Below, one piece after another: positions 38,201 through 51,786 of a stretch of DNA of 64,000 nucleotides. The DNA is from Procambarus clarkii (Eukaryota; Arthropoda; Malacostraca; Decapoda; Cambaridae). The DNA is taken from positions 21,585,047-21,649,046 of the forward strand of contig NC_091193.1 in NCBI RefSeq assembly GCF_040958095.1, read 5' to 3'. The notes beneath the pieces were generated by a model. It worked only from the letters and a program-made list of their open reading frames with translations. It did not search any database and had not been told where the DNA came from. Positions within the stretch are counted from its first letter, which is position 1. Each line of letters starts with the position of its first letter. Made by a program: the position numbers and the translations under genes.

Positions 38201-41200
38201 GAGGAAGTAGAAGGCCTCGGAGAAGCCCAGCAGCATGATGAAGTAGATGATGGAGAAGGTGAACATGTCGCCCGTGATCATCTTGTAGATCATCACCACG
38301 AACGGCCCCGTCAGCTTCAGCGCTCTGCCAGAGAAAGAGAGATAAAGAGTGAAAGTGAGAGAGAGAGAGAGAGAGAGAGAGAGAATGTAAGAAAGAGCGA
38401 GAGTGAGCATGCGGGTGAGGGTAGGTGAAAAAAAGAGAGAGATTTATTGATTGGTTTCTTCAGGCGCCATGGCAACGAGTTCATCAGGGGCTCTAGTATT
38501 CAAATATTCATCTGGCTCTTGGATGAAACAACACAGCCTTGCTATACCTGCTCCACTTCCCAACAGGATGAATGAAACTAGAGCGAAAGGAGGGGGTGGG
38601 GGGAAAATAGGGCTCTATGACTTTACTGAACGACGGTGCTCCTTCTTGGAGGATGGGACACGCTTTGTCTGTCTCCTATTACGTGGTAAGAAAGAGGGCT
38701 TCAGAAGTCACACTCAACTGCTCTCAGGAATGTCTGAAAACCTGGCACTCCCTCCCCGAAGAAATAGGTGCTTAGAGCAAGAAGGTCAACTGAAAATGGT
38801 AGAAGTTAAGACAGAGAAAATGATTGTCGAGGGAGACCTCTGAAACCCACAGTTTTTTTTTATGAACATCGTCAAGAACCTTCAAGAATGTACTTATAAA
38901 ACAAAACAAGGTACACTTGAGCAGACATACAAGGGGACACCTTTGCATGTGGTCAATTGCAAATATTAGTGCAAAGGTGCAGTGCAGAGGCTGAGGGGTG
39001 GCTAGTGGCGCTCCTGAACTCGAACTAAGACTTACCCGGCGAAGAACATGAGCATGAACCAGGACCCGGCCACGGCGTAGGAGAGGAGCTCGTCCTCGAG
39101 GGCCCTGAGGACCAGCATCTCGGGCTTGAAGAAGTAGACGATGCGACAGGGAACCACCAGCATGATGAGCAGGTTGGCTACCATGAAGATGGCCTTAGGA
39201 GCGTTGCCGGCCTGGACACAACGGGAGAAGGGGCCTCCTGTTAGATATTAACGGGTGGACACAATAAAAGTAGCCACCTGTTAGACAATATCCCGCCTGG
39301 ACAGGTCGGGAAAATCGTCCACCTGTTAGACATTAACTCCTCCAGGAAAAACTAAATTACTTTCAACCTTTTAAACGCCGTTGAAGTTTTCGTATGCTAA
39401 AAAGCAAGACCTAAATTAAACATTTTTAATAACGCACAATTTTGTTCAAAGAGCAAACTTTTGTTAACGCCGCTTTAGAACGTGAAAAAATTTCTGTTAT
39501 ATATAAAACAGCCAATTGAGAATATACACAAAAAGTTTGTCATATTTTAAGACGGCTACAAAAAAGACACCAGCCACATAACATGGCTGACGCAGCCTGA
39601 CGCAGCCTGACGCGAGGTACATGTCTGACGCCAGACTTTCAGCCTGTTGACCACGTCCCTCATGAAGGCCATGCTCCAGTACCACTCACCAAGCCCCTCA
39701 TGAAGGCCATGCTCCAGTACCACTCACCAAGCCCCGCATGAAGGCCATGCTCCAGTACCACTCACCACGCCCCTCATGAAGGCCATGCTCCAGTACCACT
39801 CACCAAGCCTCGCATGAAGGAGGAGAGCCCCTGGTTCATAATCTCCTCCCCCTGCTGGAAGACGACGTAGGAGATCACTCCGGCCAGGGTACCTCCCTCG
39901 AAGCAGTACCTGGCGATGCTCTTGAAGTCATTGTCGAAGAACTCGTCGTAGAGCATCTTCCTTATCTCCGGCTTGTTCTGTCACGAGGAGGTGACAGAAC
40001 ATATATATATATATATATATATATATATATATATATATATATATGTCGTACCTAGTAGCCAGAACGCACTTCTCAGCCTACTATGCAAGGCCTGATTTGC
40101 CTAATAAGCCAAGTTTTCATGAATTAATATATTTTCTCTAATTTATTTCTTATGAAATGATAAAGCTACCCATTTCATTATGTATGAGGTCAATTTTTTT
40201 TTATTGGAGTTAAAAATAACGTAGATATATGGCCGAACCTAACCAACCCTACCTAACCTAACCTAACCTATCTTTATAGGTTAGGTTAGGTTAGGTAGCC
40301 GAAAAAGTTAGGTTAGGTTAGGTTAGGTAGGTTAGGTAGTCGAAAAACAATTAATTCATGAAAACTTGCCTTATTAGGCAAATCGGGCCTTGCATAGTAG
40401 GCATAGAAGTGCGTTCTGGCTATTAGGTACGACATATATATATATATATATATATATATATATATATATATATATATATATATATATATATATATACACT
40501 TGTAACTCTGCTGCAAGATTATTAGTATATGTAATCTTGCAGCAGTATATATATATGGTTATATGTCACAAAGAAATCACAATTGCATGCTATTTCAAAT
40601 ACAATCATTTTGAGACAATAGAGTGACTCGGACTCGCGTTCTGGTGAATCCCAGACACTTGGCCTAACCGACTCGGCCATGATGGTACAGCATCCGACCA
40701 ACTCGGTCTCTGTAACCATCAACACTATACCCGGGCACCGCCGGGAACCCCATCTACAACCCTCTCATTCGCATTCCCTACCCTCCACCACCTTCCCTAT
40801 CCTCCACCACCTTCCCTACCCTCCACCACCTTCCCTATCCTCCACCACCTTCCCTACCCTCCACCACCTTCCCTACCCTCCACCACCTTCCCTATCCTCC
40901 ACCACCTTCCCTACCCTCCACCACCTTCCCTATCCTCCACCACCTTCCCTATCCTCCACCACCATCCCTACCCTCCACCACCTTCCCTACCCTCCACCAC
41001 CTTCCCTACCCTTCACCACTCTCTCTACTCTTCATTTTCTCTTTAACCATTTTACCATTTGAACTAAATACTGCCTTCATCAATTTATTTTTCATAAGAG
41101 AAACTAACATTTAATCAAAATTTATGCACTGAATCAGTGAGGATTAAGTCTTTTATTTACCGAGATTGGGAAAATGTGTCATTTGCCATTTCATGCAAAG

Positions 41201-51786: not shown

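Follow-up and report, generated by a model that had tools for sequence, protein, structure and literature searches.

Three of the 13 splice donors modelled in the Inactive (iav) TRPV channel gene of Procambarus clarkii, those of exons 2, 4 and 9, lie within minisatellite arrays whose units repeat the donor itself. These arrays are best read as repeats that have expanded in the ordinary way and are tolerated by splicing, like those of the human factor VII gene (F7), with no special donor-seeking mechanism.

The iav gene and its donor-spanning arrays

The window, which is the whole stretch of 64,000 nucleotides that was analysed, lies on contig C44 of an assembly of 4.03 Gb in 2308 contigs. The gene that carries the arrays is on the minus strand, and the original prediction that it is iav-like was borne out by a phmmer comparison with solved proteins, in which Inactive matches at 8.9e-300 over residues 1-727 of the 734 sent (1108 residues modelled) and Nanchung at 7.8e-94. 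Since the closest solved match is Inactive, and not Nanchung or TRPV5/6, the model falls in the Inactive subfamily. Its 14 exons agree in phase and have GT-AG borders, and its frame passes to the following exon at the donors 50596, 48244 and 39804. No exon 1 was found, so the exon numbering is taken from the original prediction. Thirteen of the 17 genome matches to iav exons are at the window locus; a second iav copy, sought for a comparison of copy numbers, was ruled out because the off-locus matches are only four and weak (3.4e-6 to 0.01). The exons and the arrays at or near their borders are as follows, with a slash marking the splice junction.

50596..50756, minus strand: iav exon 2, last base 50596, donor CAG/GTAAGG, phase joins exon 3
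49442..50624, minus strand: 33/24-bp minisatellite, 39 CAG/GTAAGG donors, overlaps the end of exon 2 by 29 bases
48790..49009, minus strand: iav exon 3 (gene model and Inactive alignment)
48244..48339, minus strand: iav exon 4, donor TTG/GTGAGTGG (gene model and Inactive alignment)
47766..48245, minus strand: 23-bp minisatellite, 21 copies, 20 good donors, overlaps the end of exon 4 by 2 bases
34131..47280, minus strand: iav exons 5-8 and 10-15, none of their donors array-spanned (exon 5, 47280-47057; exon 6, 44988-44763; exon 7, 43829-43714; exon 8, 43616-43512; exon 10, 39211-39036; exon 11, 38324-38108; exon 12, 37328-37167; exon 13, 36612-36424; exon 14, 36116-36007; exon 15, 35283-34131)
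43853..43999, minus strand: 46-bp array, 24 bp ahead of the exon-7 acceptor, which it does not span
39804..39977, minus strand: iav exon 9, donor TTG/GTGAGTGG (gene model and Inactive alignment)
39650..39820, minus strand: 38-bp minisatellite, 4.5 copies, four donors, overlaps the end of exon 9 by 17 bases
35923..35987, minus strand: 18-bp array, starts 20 bp past the exon-14 donor, which it does not span

The tandem arrays claimed for exons 2, 4 and 9 are recovered by TRF with 39, 21 and 4.5 copies respectively, as overlapping rows of 24, 33 and 57 bp at exon 2, as 23 bp x 20.9 at exon 4 and as 38 bp x 4.5 at exon 9. Coding bases had been seen in the units of exons 2 and 9, and the TRF intervals do take in 29 and 17 exonic bases there, while exon 4 contributes almost nothing (2). 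The units had also been called unrelated, but those of exons 4 and 9 have GTGAGTGG in common: the border of exon 4 reads CTGTTG/GTGAGTGG, with 21 copies of its 23-bp unit behind it, and that of exon 9 reads GGCTTG/GTGAGTGG, with four units of 38 bp. That each unit begins at the donor, as was also observed, is in itself no evidence, because the start phase of a tandem unit is arbitrary; what counts is that the array covers the donor.

The exon-2 array consists of 39 units of 33, 24 or (in three cases) 34 bp, which start with GTAAGG and all but the last of which finish with CAG, so that all 39 are scored as CAG/GTAAGG, the first CAG being exon 2's own end. The repeated bases include the K-Y-R codons of W-K-[YF]-R, a motif shared with solved Inactive, and because they encode part of it the repeat more likely passed from the exon into the intron than the other way. 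At exon 4, 20 of the 21 copies have a donor score above 4, and divergence is greatest in the two most distal copies. The units of the arrays are non-identical, with position-specific variants. Readings of the arrays as coding repeats were rejected, at exon 2 because the 34-bp units and stops break every frame of a single long repeat and at exon 9 because the frame stops inside the first unit.

The window contains other repeats and a second gene. Two giant minisatellites adjoin at 1187-6025 (51 bp x 95) and 6101-10654 (40 bp x 113), and all three plus-strand frames of the latter are open for 4.2-4.5 kb. A dispersed repeat beside AT microsatellites at 40000-40400, in iav intron 8, has near-identical copies on many contigs (at least 244 matches), and open frames at 3-494, 55094-55534 and 57509-57995 resemble, by eye, fragments of LINE endonuclease and reverse transcriptase. 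A 25-bp array at 36988-37097 (minus strand), in the intron after exon 12, has units with an acceptor-like TTCTACAG/GA and is not at a real acceptor. An opsin-like receptor gene of eight exons occupies 18338-28419 on the plus strand. Its best match among solved proteins is rhodopsin (1.5e-33), a lysine is seen by eye in its TM7 region, and none of its seven donors is array-spanned.

Frequency and placement of arrays around splice sites

Donor-spanning arrays are not confined to iav, because a case with the same anatomy occurs in a kinesin gene. Its donor (L124, G000:C60:22620059-22620289) reads GIIPR/GTACGC and lies in a 48-bp array that includes the last 20 exonic bases and extends to the end of the sampled stretch; the GT survives in two of the three further copies there and is lost from the third. 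The donor call is supported by the next kinesin exon match, which resumes at about the same model position. There, as at iav exons 2, 4 and 9, the authentic donor is in the first repeat copy.

The kinesin case comes from a small, heuristic sample of 113 donors from other genes of the same genome, each taken as the highest-scoring site close to where a domain match ends, and not from RNA. Flanks of 1.5 kb were included for 60 of the loci (30 myosin, 30 kinesin) and flanks of 220 bp for 22 tyrosine-phosphatase exons; the other 31 are donor stretches of 231 bases, from kinesin (20), ion-channel (8) and phosphatase (3) genes. All are part of the matches listed, which number 102 for myosin, 123 for kinesin, 92 for phosphatase and 89 for ion channels. 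Removal of seven duplicate sequences left 106 donors, 83 of which score at least 2; coverage by distance was computed on 43 of the 60 flanked loci and the counts within 100 bp on 49 of 82, after removal of duplicates and low scores. Some pairs of exon matches have identical scores (C27:1671121/1793106, C41:19864803/23092326 and C1:42208357/42528557, all with prefix G000), and the splice-site bases of L027 and L028 are the same; such identical-score pairs could be recent duplicates or uncollapsed haplotypes, and could show changes in array copy number.

Arrays span 1 of the 106 distinct sampled donors and none of 76 acceptors. Donor-spanning therefore recurs at about 1% of sampled donors, with a very wide error, and iav is an outlier. 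The difference between iav (3/13) and the sample (1/106) gives a Fisher P of 0.004, which is post hoc and unadjusted for the roughly fourfold higher array coverage of iav (21.8% of the gene, compared with 5.0% of the 60 flanked sample loci). When the arrays in the introns of both window genes were re-placed at random, a mean of 0.09 to 0.80 spanned a donor, against the three seen, and P ranged from 0/20,000 to 0.041 with the array threshold and the allowed overrun into the exon (5 or 30 bp), again post hoc, the window having been picked for this feature. At the sample rate of 0.94% per donor, three spanned donors in a 13-donor gene have P = 2.2e-4, and since an animal has on the order of 20,000 genes, a few genes with three spanned donors are to be expected.

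Array coverage on the donor side in the window is 15, 18, 25, 31, 26 and 20% at +1..10, 11..30, 31..60, 61..100, 101..200 and 201..400 respectively, and in the same six bins it is 0, 0, 0.9, 6.2, 7.0 and 4.0% for the 43 sampled exons, which do not include the spanned kinesin donor. The corresponding acceptor-side values are 0, 1.7, 7.6, 8.3, 12.8 and 14.7% in the window and 0, 0, 0, 0, 0.4 and 1.6% in the sample. Farther out in the sample the order is reversed, with 3.7% (donor) versus 5.5% (acceptor) at 401-800 and 4.7% versus 9.3% at 801-1300. Neither the window nor the 43 sampled exons, a small set, shows a peak of coverage at +1..10 from the donor, and arrays are not commoner at donors than in the adjacent intron. 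Eight of the 11 larger intronic arrays (period at least 15, score at least 150) in the two window genes touch no donor at all.

Arrays may come closer to donors than to acceptors, which is suggestive only: within 100 bp they are found at 7/20 donors and 2/21 acceptors in the window (P = 0.067) and at 3/49 and 1/49 in the sample (P = 0.62), and the pooled P rises from 0.045 at 100 bp through 0.075 at 150 bp to 0.15 at 200 bp. The contrast in spanning, 4/126 donors against 0/97 acceptors, is not significant (P = 0.13), and one sampled acceptor (L095) has an array just 10 bp away. Most simply, the pattern would arise if arrays are eliminated from exons and from the neighbourhood of acceptors more than from that of donors.

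The recurrence of arrays at donors had been taken to argue for a mechanism, and this interpretation is partly supported: the recurrence is real and extends to the kinesin gene, but the step to a mechanism targeted at donors, or to selection for redundancy, is not supported. Coverage falls toward the donor without a peak. On such a mechanism the donor sequence would itself promote duplication, through slippage, breaks linked to U1 or R-loops, or repair at the junction, and arrays would nucleate preferentially at donors. The three donor-spanning and zero acceptor-spanning arrays of the window would fit this, as would the further donor case in kinesin beside 0/76 acceptors, but the constraint on acceptors accounts for the contrast equally well, and the sample yields no local peak and a spanning rate of 1/106 where arrays cover 5% of the flanked loci. 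The excess of donor overlap over general repeat density that was expected of a donor-targeted process is thus absent from this small sample. Composition is likewise divided. Sense-strand G+T is 65% in the exon-4 array and 67% in the exon-9 array, compared with 52% in iav introns, and this count slightly raises the probability that we allow the mechanism; the exon-2 array, the largest, has 47% and is instead purine-rich (76% A+G), so that slippage at G/T-rich donors, as proposed for all three, is rejected as the common cause. Other iav intronic arrays range from 0 to 87% G+T. Taken together, we consider promotion of duplication by the donor unlikely.

Predicted use and products of the downstream donors

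By matrix score the downstream copies carry competent donors: they equal the real donor at exon 2, are equal to it or slightly higher at exon 9, and reach 6.47 versus 5.0 at exon 4. Because downstream copies at exon 4 outscore the real donor, correct splicing would need a rule by which the most upstream donor is taken first. RNA structure that hides the downstream donors was rejected as the basis of such a rule, since the prediction does not favour the first donor: its predicted accessibility is the lowest of all at exon 4 (0.17, compared with about 0.40 for the copies) and at exon 9, and at exon 2 it is about the same as that of the other 19 examined.

Splicing simulated from each donor in turn gives the full-length protein from only the exon-proximal donor at exon 4 (1 of 20; 0 of 19 extras) and at exon 9 (1 of 4; 0 of 3 extras). 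The extra copies at these exons are to be regarded as decoys and not as spares, because each gives a truncated protein, and if the channel is made, the first donor there must be chosen by something other than donor score. At exon 2 the frame is kept by 16 of the 39 donors (15 of the 38 extras). Donors 1-16 remain stop-free and would add 0-153 residues before the ankyrin repeats, while donors 17-39 give truncated products and the three 34-bp units shift the frame.

The open frame at exon 2 raises the alternative that the repeats there are functional, with in-frame donors producing Inactive isoforms that differ by blocks of 8 or 11 residues in the linker before the ankyrin repeats. The unit lengths of 24 and 33 bp are multiples of three, and the 48-bp kinesin unit, read from its sequence, is likewise in frame and stop-free for one extra copy; but chance alone could well give two lengths divisible by three, the 34-bp units shift the frame, donors 17-39 truncate the product, and isoforms of this kind are impossible at exons 4 and 9. 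This alternative is quite improbable. Selection for donor redundancy, which the original prediction had also offered, would have the spares buffer mutation of the first donor, and a good donor is indeed kept in 39/39 copies at exon 2, 20/21 at exon 4 and 4/4 at exon 9; yet other positions of the unit are, by eye, conserved about as well as the donor, and any spare at exons 4 and 9 truncates the protein, which makes this selection very improbable. Assemblies often misstate how many copies a long array has, but collapse or inflation of repeats by the assembler is hardly credible as the source of arrays whose units vary by position, whose unit is carried by exons 2 and 9 themselves, and whose gene has strong exon matches at the window locus only.

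Neutral expansion and known systems

The arrays are probably the product of neutral minisatellite turnover that is tolerated at donors through upstream-first choice. The account that we infer, in its mutational process, its upstream-first rule in this animal, its neutrality and its reason for the sparing of acceptors, would run as follows. Minisatellites would arise and expand across the introns of a repeat-rich stretch by slippage or unequal exchange, and a duplication that chanced to straddle a donor would place a complete donor in each new copy and leave the copy that touches the exon intact. If the spliceosome takes the most upstream, exon-defined donor, the mRNA would be unchanged and the array could drift and expand neutrally, while at an acceptor a comparable array would upset the branch point and the polypyrimidine tract and would be removed.

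Neutral turnover is favoured because most of the larger intronic arrays touch no donor and coverage declines toward donors, because the exon-2 and exon-9 arrays repeat their own exon's bases and an independent case is present in the unrelated kinesin gene, and because at exons 4 and 9 the full-length protein comes from the first donor alone despite the scores and accessibility of the copies. Against it stand the three spanned donors in one 13-donor gene, which exceed the sample rate, and the weakness of the donor-acceptor contrast, which is not significant for spanning, has an array 10 bp from an acceptor and is reversed farther out.

Tentatively, a wider proposal may be made: that about 1% of donors in this genome head donor-bearing minisatellites, that strict upstream-first choice of the 5' splice site keeps them harmless, so that they form, with up to 39 equal donors, a natural genome-wide assay of that choice, and that some in-frame ones, such as that of iav exon 2, are reservoirs of new coding repeats. 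Choice by the spliceosome among identical neighbouring donors is usually tested with designed minigenes. In iav such neighbours occur naturally, in series of 4, 20 and 39, and at two exons the first alone is predicted to give the full-length channel, although the copies downstream match or exceed it in score. If RNA confirms upstream-first use, repeat-rich genomes such as this would supply many natural tests of donor choice. Such a rule, if true, would also show how minisatellites occupy exon borders without breaking genes.

Within the reach of our literature searches, no report of donor-spanning minisatellites in decapods was found. The closest known case is in human F7, whose intron 7 repeats were reportedly first studied by Borensztajn in 2006. 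Intron 7 has 37-bp repeats with the authentic donor in the first copy, and upstream-first donor use is stated for them (PMC6627357). F7 is like iav in that a minisatellite overlaps the donor and places more donors downstream, with upstream-first use predicted for iav, and the units are of similar size (23-48 bp in the crayfish genes, 37 bp in F7); iav differs in having three arrays in one gene, with up to 39 donors, in an invertebrate TRPV channel whose donor use is here only predicted. Internal tandem repeats with units averaging 30 bp also occur at exon-intron boundaries in human segmental duplications, where they alter the borders and may, according to the authors, form novel introns (PMC2812944). 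These too are minisatellites at exon-intron borders, but they lie in recently duplicated paralogues, whereas iav is a single-copy conserved gene with arrays that are mostly intronic. CeRep25B of C. elegans is an intronic minisatellite near alternative exons with a proposed effect on splicing (PMC4039745). It resembles the iav arrays as an intronic minisatellite tied to splicing, and differs in being one repeat family with candidate splicing-regulatory motifs, whereas the iav arrays are built of unrelated units that carry the donor itself.
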